A stretch of 64,000 nucleotides of DNA, taken from an uncultured Acidimicrobiales bacterium. Lineage in GTDB: Bacteria > Actinomycetota > Acidimicrobiia > Acidimicrobiales > SHLQ01. The position numbers were made by a program, and so were the translations under genes. The notes beneath the pieces were generated by a model. It was given only the letters and a program-made list of their open reading frames with translations. It was not told where the DNA came from and searched no databases. The stretch lies in the NCBI GenBank assembly GCA_938023735.1, contig CALJDK010000107.1:1-64000 (forward strand), given 5' to 3'. Positions 33,305 to 43,225 of the stretch are shown in pieces (position 1 is the first letter of the stretch; every line of letters begins with the position of its first letter).

Positions 33305-33493
33305 ATGATGACTCAGTACAACTTCCTCGCAACCTGGCTTAAGGCTCACACCAAGACCGAACGTGGTGCCTCGCTCGTCGAGTACGCCCTCCTCGTTGCA
33401 CTTATCGCCGTCGTATGTATCGCAGCAGTAACCCTGCTCGGTAAGAGCGCCTCGAAGTCCTTCTCCGAGATCGCCTCGAAGGTTGACAACTAA
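33305..33493 (+). CDS. flp: Flp-family type IVb pilin
   Basis: 62 residues. Leader of 21 residues ending ...KTERG, then mature ASLVEYALLVALIAVVCIAA. A Gly at -1, Glu at +5 and Tyr at +6 match the Flp prepilin peptidase (TadV-type) site, and the hydrophobic helix forms the fibre core. The short hydrophilic tail is typical of Flp. It should be assembled by the Tad machinery encoded about 4-11 kb further on. No TadE/TadF pseudopilin or prepilin peptidase is in the window. It is flanked by terminators on both sides, so it is a single-gene unit, as often seen for a highly expressed major pilin. Confidence 0.95.
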   Translation: MMTQYNFLATWLKAHTKTERGASLVEYALLVALIAVVCIAAVTLLGKSASKSFSEIASKVDN

Positions 33494-33814: not shown

Positions 33815-34684
33815 TTAGTCTGACCCTTCGTCTGACCCTTCGTCTGACCCTTCGTCTGACCCTTCGTCTGACCCTTCGTCTGACCCCTGGGCTGACATTG
33901 GTTCTAGTTCGATGGCGAACCACGTCTTTAGGGTTGCTGGCCAGTCTTGTTGGGAGACTGGGGTTACCTCTTCTTCGCCGGGGCCGGAGATCTTAAGCCG
34001 GTCCTTCAACAGCGTTACCCGCTTGGGGCCACCTTCGATAAGGCGAGTTGCGAATGGCTTGTTGCTCCAGTGCAGCTCGGGATTGCCCTGCAGCGCGTCG
34101 CTTGCCGGAGTGAAGTCCTCTAACGAGTGCGCCACACGTTTGAAGCGGTACTGCGCAGCCGGCACACCATCGTCGTCATGACGAGTGAGTGTGGTGCCCT
34201 GCGGACTGGCAATGAGCTGATAGACGCCGGTGCCGCCATCCTGGGCGTCGCCGCTGTTCAACCGCAACGGGGTGGAGAAGCTGTCGCCGAAGCCCACATC
34301 GACCAGGAAAGGCTCGTCGACGACCACTTCCAACGTGAGATGGTCGATGACTTTCGACGGGCCATCGAGCAGCACAGCAGCGCCAAGCAGACTCACCTGG
34401 AACCCAATCGCTTCCAGCAGCGCAGCGAAAGCGCCATTGACTTCGAAACACCATCCGCCCCGGTTGAGATCGAGGATCTTGGAAACGGAGTGGTCGAGGT
34501 CGGTCGTGACCCGCAGGCCAGCGACCACGTCGAGGTTCTCAAATGGCACCGAGCTGAGGTGTGCCTGCTGAAGACGAGTGAGCCAATCAAGGTGTACCTG
34601 TGGCGCTTCGGAGATGCCGATCCGGTCAAGGTAGCGGCGAATGTCATCACCGGATAGATGAGAGGAGTCAGCGGGAGGAGTCAC
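33815..34684 (-). CDS. nat: arylamine N-acetyltransferase with GSDE-repeat tail
   Basis: 289 residues. Transfers acetyl from acetyl-CoA to arylamines or hydrazines. The Cys-His-Asp catalytic triad is intact: Cys in NRGGWCFEVNGAF, His in VIDHLTLEV and Asp in FLVDVGFGDSF. The N-terminal YLDRIGI and SVPFENLDV motifs are diagnostic. After the normal C-terminal domain (about residue 262) the chain ends in six GSDE-type units encoded by a 12-bp tandem repeat. This makes an acidic, disordered tail not usual in the family. ATG at 34684 is followed by the Ser/Asp-rich start MTPPADSSHLSGDDIRRYL. Confidence 0.92.
   Translation of the reverse strand: MTPPADSSHLSGDDIRRYLDRIGISEAPQVHLDWLTRLQQAHLSSVPFENLDVVAGLRVTTDLDHSVSKILDLNRGGWCFEVNGAFAALLEAIGFQVSLLGAAVLLDGPSKVIDHLTLEVVVDEPFLVDVGFGDSFSTPLRLNSGDAQDGGTGVYQLIASPQGTTLTRHDDDGVPAAQYRFKRVAHSLEDFTPASDALQGNPELHWSNKPFATRLIEGGPKRVTLLKDRLKISGPGEEEVTPVSQQDWPATLKTWFAIELEPMSAQGSDEGSDEGSDEGSDEGSDEGSD
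33818..33889. repeat. 12-bp tandem repeat at the nat 3' end
   Basis: Five exact copies of GTCTGACCCTTC plus one diverged copy (33878-33889). Being a multiple of three it keeps frame and encodes repeated Gly-Ser-Asp-Glu in nat. Slippage here would change tail length without breaking the gene. Confidence 0.95.
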
Positions 34685-35585: not shown

Positions 35586-35695
35586 GTGAAGGGCCGCCGC
35601 CCACCGCCAAACATAAGGATCGAGTCCTGTCCTGGGAACGGGGCGCTGTCCCCTGGGGAGAGCTCCCCACACGCTCGGGCGAGTTACACTTTCCC

Positions 35696-35959
35696 ATGCA
35701 CGAGATCAGCATTACCTACTGCGTCCCTTGAGATTATTCGAGCCGCGCCGTGAGCGCCGCCGCCGATCTCCTCAGTAACTACCAACACATCATCGCCTCG
35801 CTCAACCTGGTGACCGGTGGTAGCGGTGTCTACGACGTGACGGTCGACGGCACGTCGCTGTATTCAAAGCACGAGACCGGACGTCACGCGAACGACGGCG
35901 AGATTCTCGAACTCTTTACCGCCGCGTATGGCGAAGGCGTTGCCCGCTACGGAACCTGA
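35696..35959 (+). CDS. predicted Rdx/SelW-like selenoprotein (in-frame TGA = Sec)
   Basis: ATG at 35696 opens MHEISITYCVP, then TGA at 35729-35731, then DYSSRAVSAAADLLSNY in the same frame through to GEGVARYGT at 35959. Reading TGA as selenocysteine gives an 87-residue protein with Y-C-V-P-U. This is the C-x-x-U/C redox motif after the first beta strand in the thioredoxin-like Rdx (SelW/SelT/SelH) family. The rest fits that family: a helix, then GVYDVTVDGTSLYSKHETGRH and a C-terminal helix. If translation began at GTG 35750 the protein would lack strand 1 and the redox motif. A candidate SECIS hairpin follows the TGA. The family is a redox protein of poorly defined substrate. No selA, selB or tRNA-Sec is in the window. 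Confidence 0.8.
35730..35770 (+). promoter_or_regulatory. candidate bacterial SECIS element
   Basis: Starting within the TGA, GAGAT (35730-35734) can pair with ATCTC (35766-35770). Inside, GCGC (35745-35748) pairs with GCGC (35754-35757) around a CGTGA loop that begins 18 nt after the TGA. Bacterial SECIS elements are short stem-loops about 16-37 nt after UGA with a G in the apical loop, so position and loop fit. The inner stem is short, so pairing needs folding analysis. Confidence 0.5.
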
Positions 35960-35975
35960 CCCTGGGGCTCGAGTT

Positions 35976-37502
35976 CTAGGAATCGGCCGGGCAGGCGTTG
36001 TTCCGGCAACTGATGATCCAGTCGTCGTCCGCATAGGCGGTGGTCCACTGGGCTGACTCATCGAGTGCTTTGGCGAGGTCTGATCCCTCGGTCCACAGAA
36101 CGATGTCGAGGTCGTAGCGGTCGAGGCCCGCCTGCCAATCATCCTCGGCGAAGAAGAGCGCTAGGTAGTCGTTGACGAGTTCGAGTGAGTGGAACTCGTA
36201 CCGGTCGTCGATGAACACTGGCACCTCGGCGTCGTATCGCAACTCGATGAAGTTTCCGGCGAAGTCGGGGTGAGCGAACCGCACGGGGTCATCGGTGTCG
36301 AGGATGGCTTCGGTTTCCATCCAGTCGAGGGCGTCGATGGGATAGCGGTCGAGCGACCACGTTGGCTGGGTGAACACACTGGCGAGGGCAAGAAACACTG
36401 CCGCGACGCCGGTGAGCACCGTCATCTTTTCGGTCCACTCGGAGCGACTGGAATCGGGGGTCTTGCCGACTCCGTGAAATCCCTGCGCAATGATCGGTAC
36501 GAACACGATGGCGGCAACACTCATGTTGCGCACGCTCATGATGGCCAGGCCCAGGAACGTAAGGCCCACCAGCGCAGTGCGGAAGGAACGAACCCGCAGC
36601 AACGAGACCAGCATCAAGACCGCGCCAACCAGAAAGAGTTGCGCCAGGAACGACCCCGGGTTGAGCGGTTTCCATTCGGCGATGTGGCCGAGAACCTCGC
36701 CCCGTTGCAGAAGTTCGAGGGGAAACAGAAGAAGTTTGGGGCCGTAGGGGTTGACGACACCGCCAGCCAGCATGCCTGCGGTAAGCCAGAGCAACGCCCG
36801 AAGCTCGCGGTCGGGGCGGCGGCCATCGAGTCGGGTGCCAACCGTCAATGCCGCCAGAAGCGCAATGCCCAGCGGAAAGGAGCCGTGGCTCCACACCCAA
36901 ATCAAGCCGACGACAGCGAGTGGTTTCGGCGAGACGTCGTTGTTCGCGACATAAAGCGCCGCAGCAATACCGGCCAAACCAAACAACAGCGGACGCTCAG
37001 ACCACATGATGAGACCGAGAAACACGGCCGGGGCTACCGAGGCGATGCGGGCAAGCATCATGTTGGGCTTGTCGGTAATGCCGGCGGTACTGCTGAGGCC
37101 CCAGACAAGCCAGGCAAGTGCTGCGGTAAGCACGGCTCGGAACAGCTGCAGGGCGATGCCGCCGCCAAGCTGGTTCAACCCGCCATACACCAACGATGCG
37201 AGCCACGACTGCACAACAACCGGGGAGTCAGCTTCGCCGGTGAACGTGTAGGGGTCGGTGGTGAAGAACCCGTCTCGAAGGAACAGCTCACCGGTTTGAA
37301 GGTGAGTAAGGAAGCTGTTGTCGCCGAGGCTCTTGAAGCCGATCAGCACACCAACGGCAGCGAAGAGGCAGCCAACTGCCGTGCCGGCGGTCGGAGCTGT
37401 CGGGTGCTCAATATGAGCATCAGGACGATCGTCGGCCTCGTCGACGTCGGTGTCGACATCAGAAAGATCCGTATCGGCAGCGACTACCTGTTCAGACGGC
37501 AT
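35976..37502 (-). CDS. polytopic membrane protein, GT-C-like
   Basis: 508 residues. An acidic N-terminal ~40 residues (DTDLSDVDTDVDEADDR) precedes about ten membrane helices. An extracytoplasmic loop after helix 1 contains FFTTDPYTFTGEADSPVVVQSWLASLVYGG, and a soluble ~110-residue C-terminal domain (YPIDALDWMETEAILDTDDP ... FIDDRYEFHSLELVNDY) ends with two Cys (ISCRNNACPADS). The early acidic loop and topology resemble GT-C glycosyltransferase-like proteins, but no catalytic motif is certain. It lies 43 bp downstream of tadC and may be the last gene of that operon. Confidence 0.7.
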   Translation of the reverse strand: MPSEQVVAADTDLSDVDTDVDEADDRPDAHIEHPTAPTAGTAVGCLFAAVGVLIGFKSLGDNSFLTHLQTGELFLRDGFFTTDPYTFTGEADSPVVVQSWLASLVYGGLNQLGGGIALQLFRAVLTAALAWLVWGLSSTAGITDKPNMMLARIASVAPAVFLGLIMWSERPLLFGLAGIAAALYVANNDVSPKPLAVVGLIWVWSHGSFPLGIALLAALTVGTRLDGRRPDRELRALLWLTAGMLAGGVVNPYGPKLLLFPLELLQRGEVLGHIAEWKPLNPGSFLAQLFLVGAVLMLVSLLRVRSFRTALVGLTFLGLAIMSVRNMSVAAIVFVPIIAQGFHGVGKTPDSSRSEWTEKMTVLTGVAAVFLALASVFTQPTWSLDRYPIDALDWMETEAILDTDDPVRFAHPDFAGNFIELRYDAEVPVFIDDRYEFHSLELVNDYLALFFAEDDWQAGLDRYDLDIVLWTEGSDLAKALDESAQWTTAYADDDWIISCRNNACPADS

Positions 37503-37545: not shown

Positions 37546-38478
37546 CTAGAACGCTTTGGAGATGTTGATCATCGCAGGGCCAAGAATGACCACGAAGATC
37601 GAGGGGAAGATGCAGAACACCATGGGGATAAGCATCTTCACTGGCGCCTTCTGCGCCTTCTCCTGAGCAACCTGACGGCGCTTGATACGCATTTCTTCAG
37701 CCTGGGCACGAAGCACGCGACCGATCGAAACACCGAAGGTGTCGGCCTGAATAATGGCCAGAATGAACGAGCGAACCTCGGGCACGTTGATACGAGCATC
37801 CATGTTCCGAAGGGCCTCGGCACGGGCTGCACCAGCGCGGGTTTCACCGAGCATGCGGGCAAACTCGTCGGAAAGCGCACCGGGCACGTTCTCGATACAG
37901 CGATCGAGTGCCTGTTCGAAACCAAGACCTGCTTCCACCGAAATGGTGAGCAGGTCGAGCACGTCGGGCAGACCCGAAAGAATCTCGGTCTGGCGAGCCT
38001 CGACCTTACGGTTCAGCGAGCTGTCTGGTCCCATAAGCATCGCCGCAGCGAACACCAGGAACATACCGACCTTCAACAAGCCGCCCAGTCCGAGCGGGTT
38101 GAGGATCATCACGATGTAGAACATCGGAAGCACACCGATGGCCAGCATGACCTTGGTTGCCAGGAACCGGTCGACCGCTTCGGCTTCGAAGATGCCGGCA
38201 GACTGATGCTTGGTTCGGGTCTGTTCGATGTAGCCGTGTGGCGTGAATCGACGGCCGAGTTTACTGAAGACGGCGCCCAAGGGGCCCATCAAACGGCTCA
38301 GAAGCGACTCTTCGAGCCGTTCGTCGCTGAAGTCCTCGGCATCTTCGGGGCCGTCGAGCTGGCGAAGCGATTCGCGAACGACCGACTTTTCCTCAGCCTG
38401 CGAGAGAAAGGCGTAGATGACCATCGCCAAGGCAAGGCCAACGCCGCCAACCGCTAGTTCTGGTGGAATGGTTTCCAT
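37546..38478 (-). CDS. tadC: TadC-like type II/IV secretion inner-membrane protein
   Basis: 310 residues, T2SSF (GspF) domain. A membrane helix at the start (VGGVGLALAMVIYAFLSQ), a charged cytoplasmic part, two mid helices (KVMLAIGVLPMFYIVMILNP, LLKVGMFLVFAAAMLMGP), then the T2SSF core LPDVLDLLTISVEAGLGFEQALDR and a C-terminal helix pair ending PMVFCIFPSIFVVILGPAM. It forms the Tad platform with TadB and lies 16 bp downstream of it. Confidence 0.92.
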   Translation of the reverse strand: METIPPELAVGGVGLALAMVIYAFLSQAEEKSVVRESLRQLDGPEDAEDFSDERLEESLLSRLMGPLGAVFSKLGRRFTPHGYIEQTRTKHQSAGIFEAEAVDRFLATKVMLAIGVLPMFYIVMILNPLGLGGLLKVGMFLVFAAAMLMGPDSSLNRKVEARQTEILSGLPDVLDLLTISVEAGLGFEQALDRCIENVPGALSDEFARMLGETRAGAARAEALRNMDARINVPEVRSFILAIIQADTFGVSIGRVLRAQAEEMRIKRRQVAQEKAQKAPVKMLIPMVFCIFPSIFVVILGPAMINISKAF

Positions 38479-38494
38479 AAGAAATCTCCTGGCC

Positions 38495-40558
38495 TCAGAT
38501 CCTGATCTCGATGAGTTTCTTCATCCATAGGAAGCCAATGGTGATGGCTGTGAACGCCACACCGATGAGGATGAATCCAATCGTTTCGGTGAAGAGCACA
38601 CCGATGTATTCCGGGTTGATGGCGTACATCGCCAAGCCGAGAAGAATTGGCATGGCGCCAAGCACCATGGCACTGACTCGACCTTCAGCGGTGAGTGCGG
38701 CAACCTCGCGGGCCAGACGCTCGCGGGCGGTCATCGTGTCTGAAACCGTCATGAGGAGCTCGGCCAAGTTACCGCCAACCTCTCGCTGAATGTTCACGGC
38801 CATAACCGCCCAGGCGAAGTCGGGGCTTTCCATACGCTCGGCGGCGGCGGACATTGCTTCTTCCACCGGCTTTCCAAGCTGGGCCTCGGTGACCACGATG
38901 CGAAGCTCGTCGCCCATTGGGGCTTCGGCTTCGTTCGAGACAGCCTCGATGCCCTGCATGAAGGAGTAACCGGCTTTCAAGGTACCGGCTAGCAGCTGCA
39001 GCATGTCGGGAAGTTGAGCGTTGAATTTCTTCTGACGCTTGTTGCCGAGGTAGTTCACGACCAGGTTGGGGAGTAGGGCACCGACGATAAGTCCAATGAC
39101 GGCACCGATCAGTCCTCGGAACATCAGGCCGAGAATGGCACCGACAACGATGGCGCCGAAGTACATGGTCATTGCTTCGGCAGGTCGAAGGGCCAGGTTG
39201 GCCTTTTCGAGTTTTGCTTCGGCAGCTTCGAGAAGTCCACGCTTGTCGGCGAAATCCTCGGTGAAGTCGACGGCCTTTGAAACAAGGGCGTTCGAGGCGA
39301 AGGCGCTTTCCTCAATGTCGTCGAAGTTGTCATCGAATCCGGCGTCTTCGTCGTAGGGCTGAAGAAGCGAACCAATGCTGGATTCACGCTTCTGGAACAG
39401 CAGGAAGACGGCGAAGGTTCCCATGGCGATCGCCAAGCCACCCATGACGATTCCGAGCATGCGGGCAAACCCGCCGTTCACTAGCGCAAAGCGGTTGCGC
39501 TCGGGAACCGGAATTGGGTTGAGGGCGGGTCCGGCGGTGATCGAGCCCTTGATGAAGGCCAGGTTGTTGTCGCGGCCATCAACATTGATGGCCATGTTGC
39601 CGCCGTTGGGGAGTTCGGCGTTGGTGAAGTTGGCGATCCAGGTTCCGGTAGCCGAGGTCCGAAGGGCCAGCGATGCTTCGTCGAGTCCGTCGGGGAAGGC
39701 CTCTTGACCAACGACGTTGATTGAACCCTTCGATTCGGCTGCGAATCGGTTGAGCGAGTTCACGTCGACGCCGTCACGGTTCATGACCAATGCGTGACCA
39801 ATAGCGTTGACCGACAGCATCTCACCGCGAGCTGCAGCTGCAGTAGTGGTGGAGGTGACATCGGCGGTAGCGGTAAGAACAACAACGTTGCGAACGGTTC
39901 CGCGGGCGGTGTTTGAAAGCAGGCGAGCGGCTTCGTCGACGCCATCCCAGAGATACAACGCACCTTTGGATTCGAGCTGGCTGACCCGCTGGAGGAGCTT
40001 GCCCTGGTCACGGGTGAGGGTGGACCGGACATTTACTGCAGAACCGGTGGAGATGAGTGCCATCTGTTCGCCGGGTGCTTTGTTGGCGATCAGGTCGCTG
40101 GCGATGGCTTGGAAGTGCTCAAAGCCGGTATCGCCGAGCACCGAGGTGTCGATGACGATAACGGTGGCGACGTCGACGTCGCTCTCGTTTGCTCGTTGGA
40201 CAACCACGTTGTCCGAGTCGACGCCGTTTACCGACACCGAAACATCGGGTGCGGTATCGGCGGCCTGCACGATGGTGACGACACCGTTGGAGCCGTCGGT
40301 CGAGCGGATCATCTGCACGACGCCTGCGGCGCGTGCCTCTTCGGCCTCGACGGGGGCGTCGGCGTCTTGAGCCAAGGCCGCAGGGGCGGCAAGGACCAGG
40401 ACGAGCATGCTGATCAACAAAAAGGCGATCGACTGCTGCCAGATGGCAATCTGCGCTCGCTGCTGCCGCGAGGCAACAGCGACGCTTGGCGTGTGACGGT
40501 GCCGCGCGTCGATGCGGCCTTGGGGGCGAGCCCTCCGAGTTTCGTTTCCTACAGACAC
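38495..40558 (-). CDS. tadB: TadB-like platform protein fused to an N-terminal vWA domain
   Basis: 687 residues, roughly twice a normal TadB. A membrane/signal segment (AFLLISMLVLVLAAPAALAQ) precedes an extracytoplasmic region, residues ~75-330, with a von Willebrand A-like fold (DVATVIVIDTSVLGDTGF; NVVVLTATADV). The metal site D-x-S-x-S reads D-T-S-V-L, so it is degenerate. After a membrane helix (~360) comes the T2SSF part (LPDMLQLLAGTLKAGYSFMQGIEAV) with C-terminal helices. The vWA part would sit outside the membrane and could touch pilin or peptidoglycan. Such vWA-TadB fusions are known in Actinobacteria. Confidence 0.9.
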   Translation of the reverse strand: MSVGNETRRARPQGRIDARHRHTPSVAVASRQQRAQIAIWQQSIAFLLISMLVLVLAAPAALAQDADAPVEAEEARAAGVVQMIRSTDGSNGVVTIVQAADTAPDVSVSVNGVDSDNVVVQRANESDVDVATVIVIDTSVLGDTGFEHFQAIASDLIANKAPGEQMALISTGSAVNVRSTLTRDQGKLLQRVSQLESKGALYLWDGVDEAARLLSNTARGTVRNVVVLTATADVTSTTTAAAARGEMLSVNAIGHALVMNRDGVDVNSLNRFAAESKGSINVVGQEAFPDGLDEASLALRTSATGTWIANFTNAELPNGGNMAINVDGRDNNLAFIKGSITAGPALNPIPVPERNRFALVNGGFARMLGIVMGGLAIAMGTFAVFLLFQKRESSIGSLLQPYDEDAGFDDNFDDIEESAFASNALVSKAVDFTEDFADKRGLLEAAEAKLEKANLALRPAEAMTMYFGAIVVGAILGLMFRGLIGAVIGLIVGALLPNLVVNYLGNKRQKKFNAQLPDMLQLLAGTLKAGYSFMQGIEAVSNEAEAPMGDELRIVVTEAQLGKPVEEAMSAAAERMESPDFAWAVMAVNIQREVGGNLAELLMTVSDTMTARERLAREVAALTAEGRVSAMVLGAMPILLGLAMYAINPEYIGVLFTETIGFILIGVAFTAITIGFLWMKKLIEIRI

Positions 40559-40560
40559 GT

Positions 40561-41937
40561 TTACTTCCCTCGTGCTGGTCGGCGAGGACCGTCGGGTTGG
40601 AAGACCTCTGGGCCAAGACGGATGCCCTGGTCGGCAAGCTTCTCGGCGAACTTCGGCCGCACACCAACCGGCTTCAGCTGGCCCTTGTAGCGTCCGTTTT
40701 CGTCCATTCCGGCTGCCCAGTCGAACAGGAAGATGTCTTGGAGGGTGATAATTTCACCTTCCATGCCCTGCACCTCGGAGATGTAGGTGATCTTTCGAGA
40801 ACCGTCACGAAGACGGCTGCACTGCACGATGAGGTCGATGGCCGATGACATCTGCTGGCGGATAGCGCCGATCGGCAGGTCGTAGCCGGCCATCATCACC
40901 AGGGTTTCAAGACGGGCAAGGCTGTCTCGAGGGGTGTTGGCGTGAACGGTGGTGAGTGAGCCATCGTGACCCGTGTTCATGGCCTGGAGCATGTCCAAGG
41001 CCTCACCTGCACGACACTCACCAACAACGATGCGGTCGGGACGCATACGCAGCGAGTTCTTCACCAGGTCACGAATGTGAATGGCGCCCTTGCCTTCGAT
41101 GTTTGGCGGGCGGGACTCGAGCGAAAGCACGTGCTCCTGGTGCATCTGGATTTCTTTCGCATCCTCAACGGTGACGATTCGTTCGCCTTCGGGGATGAAC
41201 GACGAGAGCACGTTCAGGGTGGTGGTCTTACCGGTACCGGTACCACCGGCAACCACAACGTTGAGCTTTCCGACGATGCAGGCCTGCAAGAAGCGGGCCG
41301 CCTGAGCGTTGAGCGTTCCGAAGCGGATCAGGTCGTCGATCTGGAGCGGATCGGCCTTGAACTTACGAATGGTGAGGAAGGGGCCACCAACCGCAAGGGG
41401 AGCAATAACCGCGTTCACACGAGAGCCGTCGGGAAGACGAGCATCACAAAGCGGGGTGGATTCGTCGATTCGACGACCAACCTGGGCGACGATCTTGTCG
41501 ATAATTCGACGAAGATGCATGTCGTCGACGAAGGTGACGTCGGAGAGCGTGAGCTTTCCGCCCTTTTCCATGTACACCTGGTTCGGGCCGTTGCACATGA
41601 TTTCTGAGCAGTCGTCGTCAGACAGAAGCTGTTCGATTGGTCCGTATCCCAAGATGTCATCGGCGACGTCCTGGATCAGCTGCGCCTTGTCAGCGGCCGA
41701 CAGCGGAGCGCGCTCGGCAGCGAGGGCAGCGTGAAGCTGCTCGTGGACCTTCTTGCGAAGATCTTCCGGCGCAAGGCGGTTGTCGTAGAGGATCGGACCG
41801 AGGTCGTCGATCAGGACGTGGTGAATCTTCGAACGAAGATCATCAAGAACCGGATCGCGGCCTGGCTTGCCACCGGGTGCTCCGGGGGCTCCTTCTTCGC
41901 CGCCTTGGGCTTGGTGGAGACGCTGGTACAAAGACAT
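40561..41937 (-). CDS. tadA: TadA/CpaF secretion ATPase
   Basis: 458 residues. Hexameric ATPase that powers Flp pilus assembly. Walker A VVAGGTGTGKTTTLNVLSSFI, Asp box VTVEDAKEIQ, Walker B RMRPDRIVVGECRGEA-like segment (RIVVGECRAGEALDML) and His box GHDGSLTTVHANTPRDSL are all present. The N-terminal region (YGPIEQLLSDDDCSEIMCNG) is typical of CpaF. A Gly/Pro-rich linker near the N-terminus is seen. It lies 2 bp upstream of tadB. Confidence 0.96.
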   Translation of the reverse strand: MSLYQRLHQAQGGEEGAPGAPGGKPGRDPVLDDLRSKIHHVLIDDLGPILYDNRLAPEDLRKKVHEQLHAALAAERAPLSAADKAQLIQDVADDILGYGPIEQLLSDDDCSEIMCNGPNQVYMEKGGKLTLSDVTFVDDMHLRRIIDKIVAQVGRRIDESTPLCDARLPDGSRVNAVIAPLAVGGPFLTIRKFKADPLQIDDLIRFGTLNAQAARFLQACIVGKLNVVVAGGTGTGKTTTLNVLSSFIPEGERIVTVEDAKEIQMHQEHVLSLESRPPNIEGKGAIHIRDLVKNSLRMRPDRIVVGECRAGEALDMLQAMNTGHDGSLTTVHANTPRDSLARLETLVMMAGYDLPIGAIRQQMSSAIDLIVQCSRLRDGSRKITYISEVQGMEGEIITLQDIFLFDWAAGMDENGRYKGQLKPVGVRPKFAEKLADQGIRLGPEVFQPDGPRRPARGK

Positions 41938-41959
41938 GGGGGTTTAGACCTTCGGGTCG

Positions 41960-43225
41960 TTACTTACGTTTGCGGTTGCCTTCGACGGAAATGAAGTCGT
42001 TGGCGAGCTCTTCGAGGGCACGGGCCACACCACTGCGTGGCGAGGCGTGGACGACGGGGATTCCCTTGTTGATGGACTGCGGAACAACGACGTCGCTGGG
42101 GAGCAACGAGTCGGCGCTGACTTGAAGGGTGCGTTCCACCTCGGACACATCGAGCTTCACTTTGGAGTTGGCTCGGTTGAGTACGAGACGGATCTTTTCC
42201 ATCGGGGTGTTGAGGAGTCGAAGGGTCTGAAGACCGATCTTGACGTTCTTGATGTTGGGGATATCCATCCCGGCGATCAGCAGAACGTCGTCGCTCATTT
42301 CGATCATGCCGAGCACGACGTCGTTGAAGTACGCCGGCGTATCGATGATGACGTGTGAGCAGAAGCGGCGGAGCGCTTCGATGATCATGACCATCTCGGG
42401 GGCACCGATCTGATCGGCGAATGCTGGTTCGAGTGGAGCAGGCATCACCAGCAGGCCGGATGGCTCGTGGACGGTGAGAAGGCTGCGAAGCATTCCCTCA
42501 TCGAGGCGATCGGCGTTTGCTACCGCATCGACCAGCGTGTGAGCTGGAGCAAGCTTGAGCATGACGGCGATGTCACCGAACTGAAGGTCGGCGTCGACGA
42601 GTGCCACGGGGCGTTCGCTGCGCTGAGCAAGCACCACACCGAGGTTCGATGCAAGCATCGACTTGCCGGCGCCACCTTTGGTGGAGAACACGGTTACAAC
42701 CTGGCCGGACTCGCCAGTGCCGAACTCGTCATAGAGCTCGTCGGATCCAACGGAATGGCTGCTGGAAGGTGCTGGTGCAAGGCTCGAACCAACCCGGTCG
42801 ACGGCTTCCAGAAGCTGGAGGTTGTCGATCGGAGCGGCAAGAACATCCTTCACGCCCGACCGCAGCGCAAGCTGTAGGAGGGAGGTTGAGAGTTCCTGAG
42901 CGATCAGGATGGTTCCAAGCTCGTGGTGAGTTTGGAGCATGTGCGAGGCGGCGCTGAGGCTTGCATCATCAGAGATGCTCGGGCCGAGAACGGCCACAAC
43001 GGGTGCGCCAGTCAGGCGTGCTGAAAGCTCGGGAAGCGAACCAAAGGCGGCGATGTTGCCACCGAGTTGGTTAACGATCTCGGCTTGGGTGGCGCCGTCG
43101 GCGTCGACAACAACGACGGTGACACCCTCTGGAGATGAGGCTGCGGGAGCCTCCGACGGTTCTGATTCTTCCGAGCCGAAGGGCTCGTCGAACCAGTTTC
43201 CGTCATCTTCGAAGAATGATGACAT
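41960..43225 (-). CDS. TadZ/CpaE-like ParA-family ATPase
   Basis: 421 residues. An acidic N-terminus (NWFDEPFGSEESEPSEAP) leads into a receiver-like domain (VTVVVVDADGATQAEIVNQLGG) without an obvious phospho-Asp site. Then comes a deviant-Walker ATPase: VVTVFSTKGGAGKSMLASNL, ALVDADLQFGDIAVML and HVIIDTPAYFNDVVLGMI. TadZ/CpaE proteins recruit and position the Tad apparatus, often at a pole. It lies between cpaB and tadA in the same operon. Confidence 0.93.
   Translation of the reverse strand: MSSFFEDDGNWFDEPFGSEESEPSEAPAASSPEGVTVVVVDADGATQAEIVNQLGGNIAAFGSLPELSARLTGAPVVAVLGPSISDDASLSAASHMLQTHHELGTILIAQELSTSLLQLALRSGVKDVLAAPIDNLQLLEAVDRVGSSLAPAPSSSHSVGSDELYDEFGTGESGQVVTVFSTKGGAGKSMLASNLGVVLAQRSERPVALVDADLQFGDIAVMLKLAPAHTLVDAVANADRLDEGMLRSLLTVHEPSGLLVMPAPLEPAFADQIGAPEMVMIIEALRRFCSHVIIDTPAYFNDVVLGMIEMSDDVLLIAGMDIPNIKNVKIGLQTLRLLNTPMEKIRLVLNRANSKVKLDVSEVERTLQVSADSLLPSDVVVPQSINKGIPVVHASPRSGVARALEELANDFISVEGNRKRK

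Follow-up and report, generated by a model that had tools for sequence, protein, structure and literature searches.

Proteins of the SelW-like CxxU type form a well-known bacterial selenoprotein family (PMC2398784, PMC1794560, PMC13188914). They rank with the commonest bacterial selenoproteins of marine metagenomes: no prokaryotic family is larger in the GOS table, with 427 Sec (selenocysteine) forms set against 56 Cys forms (PMC2398784), and a 2026 review lists SELENOW-like CxxU proteins among the bacterial selenoproteins, along with Prx TxxU, Prx-like UxxC/UxxU, AhpD-like CxxU, UGC TlpA and DUF3179 UxxC proteins (PMC13188914). The established bacterial mechanism for inserting Sec is delivery of Sec-tRNA by SelB via a hairpin (PMC1794560). 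The largest selenoproteomes known comprise 57 selenoproteins, in the Olavius algarvensis Delta 1 symbiont, and 63, in a Methylomirabilota MAG, and the selenoprotein-rich groups named by the 2026 review are mainly anaerobic, with Actinobacteria unmentioned (PMC13188914); an older survey treated the Actinobacteria, a phylum that then took in Symbiobacterium and Rubrobacter, as one of the selenoprotein-rich phyla (PMC1794560).

The bacterial SelW-like selenoproteins described from the Sargasso Sea and GOS metagenomes resemble the protein discussed here in size, in their thioredoxin-like fold, in the CxxU motif and in having a SECIS directly after the UGA. Unlike that metagenome set, the present gene has a chromosomal context in the Acidimicrobiales, and no Cys form accompanies it among the 114 genomes of the class (Acidimicrobiia) in which the gene was found. 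Similar proteins with Cys have been solved structurally, namely Agrobacterium Atu0228 (2fa8), Streptomyces SAV_2001 (3dex) and a Pseudomonas protein (2oka/2obk). These are alike in fold and in the position of the motif, although identity to the present protein is only 23-28%. Alignments place Cys at the Sec position in Atu0228 and in Pseudomonas 2oka (motif YCTQC), where the present protein has Sec.

The SelW-like reading frame and its predicted fold

The window, a stretch of 64,000 nucleotides from the genome of an uncultured Acidimicrobiales bacterium, contains the gene in the position given in Table 1. The initial annotation had described a frame of 87 residues opening with ATG and crossed by an in-frame TGA, and all of these elements are confirmed in the sequence. 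With the TGA read as Sec, the translated product is MHEISITYCVPUDYSSRAVSAAADLLSNYQHIIASLNLVTGGSGVYDVTVDGTSLYSKHETGRHANDGEILELFTAAYGEGVARYGT. The standard ORF list has only the 69-aa ORF in place of the full gene, and residues 1-11 appear there as the C-terminal end of another ORF, of 72 aa, for which TGA 35729 is the stop.

Table 1 Features at and around the SelW-like locus (positions in the window)
Feature	Position	Strand	Details
Predicted Rdx/SelW-like selenoprotein gene	35696..35959	+	87 residues; start ATG 35696-35698; Sec = residue 12; frame open from the in-frame TGA to stop TGA 35957-35959
C-V-P-U redox motif	35720..35731	+	Cys codon TGC 35720-35722; Sec codon TGA 35729-35731
Predicted bacterial SECIS core	35743..35759	+	stem 35743-35748 with 35754-35759; apical loop CGTGA 35749-35753; conserved G 35750
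Shortened 69-aa ORF, GTG start	35750..35959	+	from the ORF list; GTG inside the SECIS loop
Retained neighbour, further upstream	33815..34684
Retained neighbour, downstream	35976..37502
Flp-type pilin and tad/cpa-like pilus assembly cluster	33305..33493 and 37546..43225		identified by eye

The Pfam Rdx family (PF10262) matches residues 3-73, a span that includes the TGA (2.9e-15; 56.7 bits against a cut-off of 22.6), and TIGR02174 (CXXU_selWTH) is likewise above its cut-off, at 42.6 bits against 34.2. The score for the NF041051 equivalog (SelTWH_Campy), 70.5 bits, falls below the curated cut-off of 88, and the SelW-like protein is therefore not assigned to this Campylobacterota equivalog. The pattern seen at this gene is far above chance.

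An AlphaFold2 model built with nine relatives as input (pLDDT 94) predicts a strand at residues 2-9, a helix at 15-32, three further strands and a C-terminal helix. The model has a thioredoxin-like fold in which C9-V-P-U12 follows strand 1, the placement expected of Rdx/SelW proteins. When the PDB was searched with the model using Foldseek, 2fa8, 3dex, 2oka and 2obk ranked top (TM about 0.8, rmsd 1.3-1.5), with MIEN1 and mouse SelW ranking next.

The gene stands isolated, with the genes around it on the opposite strand. Two of its neighbours (Table 1) are retained beside it in both of the same-genus genomes compared, which points to an inherited chromosomal position for the selenoprotein gene. 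The pilus assembly cluster that lies to either side of it appears, by eye, to encode TadC/TadB-like membrane proteins, a CpaF-like ATPase and a CpaE-like protein.

Conservation of the TGA and the SECIS hairpin

Evidence that the TGA is a lasting feature of the gene comes from whole-genome protein searches. Within its own family, the gene is present in 17 of 19 genomes with one internal TGA in all 17 matches; across the class, it is present in 114 of 296 sampled genomes, with a TGA inside every match and no Cys form in any of the 114. Reading base by base, all 70 distinct homologous stretches have TGA at the Sec codon; these were picked by a pattern containing TGA, and the whole-genome searches, which are free of that bias, agree. 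The motif itself varies amongst homologues (CVPU, CVSU, CIVU, CAQU and others), and the codons 5' of the TGA (ISITYCVP) are kept across families. On the 3' side, same-genus comparison finds 9/9/40 differences at codon positions 1/2/3 (dN 0.14 against dS 1.49); together with the family comparisons, this shows that purifying selection acts on the codons that follow the TGA. In one homologue, from genome G270 (L059:1520-1535), the motif is U-x-x-U (ITYUVPUDYS), with TGA also at the Cys codon where its genus mates have CVPU; this would be a double-Sec SelW, or else the result of a base error.

Replacement of the TGA by a Cys codon is seen outside the class, in the haloarchaeal homologue on a Halorussus plasmid (EIEYCVPCGML) as well as in Atu0228 and the Pseudomonas protein. 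Together with the Rdx match across the TGA, these distant homologues bear out the earlier proposal that the TGA occupies the redox Cys/Sec position of C-x-x-C/U. A search of plasmids returned distant relatives only, the single one read being a Cys form, and no relatives were found on viral contigs.

The region just 3' of the UGA is predicted to form a bacterial SECIS hairpin with a G within the first two positions of its apical loop. We aligned 64 sequences without gaps from the UGA, the stem being formed by columns 15-20 with 26-31. The common structure is a six-pair stem with a five-base loop (CGUGA here), the second base of which is G in 63 of the 64 sequences. Pairing holds in 88.8% of cells, with changes on both sides in five of the six pairs; 36 cells are changed on both sides against 14.1 in shuffles and at most 17 in slid controls, and none of the 500 shuffles or of the slid controls reaches the covariation score observed. 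The inner four pairs were recovered independently in an RNAalifold consensus. The window genome has these inner four as in the family, with the outermost replaced by a shifted pairing.

A synonymous-codon test, which needs no assumed structure, points the same way. The codon for Ser20 is AGY in 51 sequences and TCN in none, against 57 AGY and 241 TCN for the other serines of the same genes (p 3e-31), and codon bias is also found at Val19 (GTG, p 4e-16) and Ala18 (GCC, p 4e-10); the aligned sequences are kin, so these p-values overstate independence. Folded alone, the window sequence is modestly more stable than shuffles (z -1.7), and with so modest a single-sequence fold it is the comparative evidence that bears the weight for the SECIS. 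No family was found in an Rfam scan of 35600-36100. A covariance model of the SelW SECIS, searched in the genome, matched only its own gene; the hairpin is therefore family-specific and unsuited as a general selenoprotein finder.

Decoding of the UGA

The initial annotation had also held that the organism uses selenocysteine, and selA, selB, selD and a tRNA-Sec are all present in the same genome. The tRNA scores 71 bits and is called tRNA-SeC by ARAGORN, with anticodon tca (UCA); selA (395 bits) and selB (283 bits), both above cut-off, are adjacent on contig C10; and selD (376 bits) has a catalytic-site TGA of its own (HGAGUGCK). Only above-cut-off matches were counted, the selB and selD profiles matching 14 of 14 control genomes and being above cut-off in two. 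The assembly is incomplete, at 90.8% in 211 contigs, and none of the Sec genes shares the contig of the window, so contamination during binning is formally possible. Across the class, selA is above the curated cut-off in 200 of the 296 sampled genomes. It is found in 71 of 72 good genomes with the SelW gene, against 76 of 138 without (Fisher about 5e-13, counts made by hand), and a clear selA is lacking in eight of the 114 gene-bearing genomes, seven of them at most 84% complete and one 90%.

How else might the TGA be explained? The window comes from a single MAG and Cys-form Rdx proteins occur elsewhere, so the gene could in principle be a plain CxxC one whose TGA arose by recent nonsense mutation or through faulty sequencing or assembly. 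However, all relatives found, each assembled independently, share the TGA and have a conserved hairpin after it; an error shared by all class relatives is ruled out, and we reject error and pseudogene alike as vanishingly improbable. That the TGA is a real stop, with the functional protein being the 69-aa ORF, gains something from the existence of an in-frame GTG. This is extremely unlikely, given that the ISITYCVP segment before the TGA is conserved across families and forms, in the model, the first strand with the redox Cys. Moreover, the GTG lies within the SECIS loop and encodes Val19, for which other members use GTT or GTC, and on these grounds the downstream-start ORF was rejected.

A different possibility is that the UGA is read, but as another amino acid: Trp through a change of code, or Cys through an opal tRNA. 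The Cys-form relatives imply that Cys would work at that place. Against this, the genome has a complete Sec system, and 3' of the TGA lies a covarying hairpin such as SelB-dependent decoding requires. The SelW-like gene and several of its homologues also end in TGA, from which it follows that UGA is not globally reassigned; reassignment of that kind was rejected, and insertion of a different amino acid is in our view very unlikely.

Decoding as selenocysteine is the reading that we favour. Taken at the level of the sequence (gene structure, family, predicted fold, conserved UGA, SECIS covariation and full Sec gene set), 35696-35959 is almost certainly a SelW-like (Rdx) selenoprotein gene with the UGA at 35729 decoded by the standard bacterial pathway; the conserved TGA, the SECIS, the Cys homologues and the Sec genes thus uphold the original prediction of an Rdx/SelW-like selenoprotein in a Sec-using organism. 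Sec insertion itself, the redox chemistry and the partner of the protein are what we infer from this. SelA and SelD, acting with tRNA-Sec, would yield Sec-tRNA, and SelB would bind the hairpin just 3' of the UGA and deliver the Sec-tRNA to the ribosome. The C-V-P-U pair at the end of strand 1 would be the selenol/thiol redox centre, and by analogy with the family the Cys-Sec pair may cycle between the selenol/thiol and selenenylsulfide states, cellular thiols reducing the selenenylsulfide. Bacterial SelW-like proteins are not known to have an established physiological substrate or reductant. The usual guess at their role is in thiol/peroxide balance, which fits the other TGA genes of the same genome.

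The probable wider selenoproteome and its implications

Catalytic-position TGAs occur in at least 19 genes of the genome, namely 13 of the AhpC/TSA family, two AhpD-like, FdhA, SelD, a DUF3179 protein and SelW. This count is a lower bound, obtained from a few targeted family searches and a scan of about 0.9 Mb. An internal TGA is present in 13 of the 20 AhpC/TSA-family genes (contigs C102, C208, C68, C42, C123, C33, C191 (two), C55, C157, C190, C127 and C62), in two of the seven CMD/AhpD-like genes and in the gene for the formate dehydrogenase alpha subunit (C136:31097-33004, - strand). The redox or catalytic motifs of the genes in these three groups are TPGU, WUPYC, WUGC, HULPC, WUPTC, CDVU, CLTU and NRTUH and, where folded, the additional TGA genes generally have a hairpin 3' of the TGA. 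A TlpA-like lipoprotein gene (C190:7179-7538, - strand) encodes WUPFU, with two TGAs three codons apart, followed by a strong hairpin that both could share.

The DUF3179 protein (contig C29; L149:9751-11526, - strand) has a TGA at the UxxC position (VSWUPLC), a Pfam match of 3.3e-51 and the hairpin cggcgatgGTCcatcgccg downstream. It came from the 0.9 Mb scan, in which redox-motif and hairpin filters returned two known cases and this new one amid false candidates. A codon-usage scan for more in-frame TGA genes gave no discrimination. AhpC/TSA genes with TGA are also numerous elsewhere in the family, although some of its genomes list none.

The families checked are of kinds already published, and what is new is thus the organism and the number rather than the families. 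On the sequence evidence, the locus is a true selenoprotein gene; its protein type is known, and the Sec-using lineage to which it belongs is under-described. The initial annotation had stated that selenoproteins are rarely reported in this group. As a statement about the literature this stands, in that our search for selenoproteins in Acidimicrobiia found no paper (weak evidence, subscription journals being largely outside its reach); as a statement about the genomes it does not, the trait being common there, as the distribution of selA attests. We lean, by a modest degree, towards a broader proposition: that SelW-like is effectively Sec-fixed across the Acidimicrobiia, and that the family around this genome has an unusually large selenoproteome centred on thioredoxin and peroxiredoxin proteins.

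If true, selenoprotein richness would extend to a lineage that is not among the anaerobic groups ranked highest in reviews. There is a practical consequence too: gene callers that take TGA as a stop only would shorten or miss SelW and at least 18 other proteins, many of them catalytic redox enzymes, and so produce wrong functional profiles. The results make the Acidimicrobiia, a class hardly present in the selenium literature covered, one of the regular selenocysteine users, and provide a clean orthologue set in which replacement of Sec by Cys is never seen, useful for asking why.
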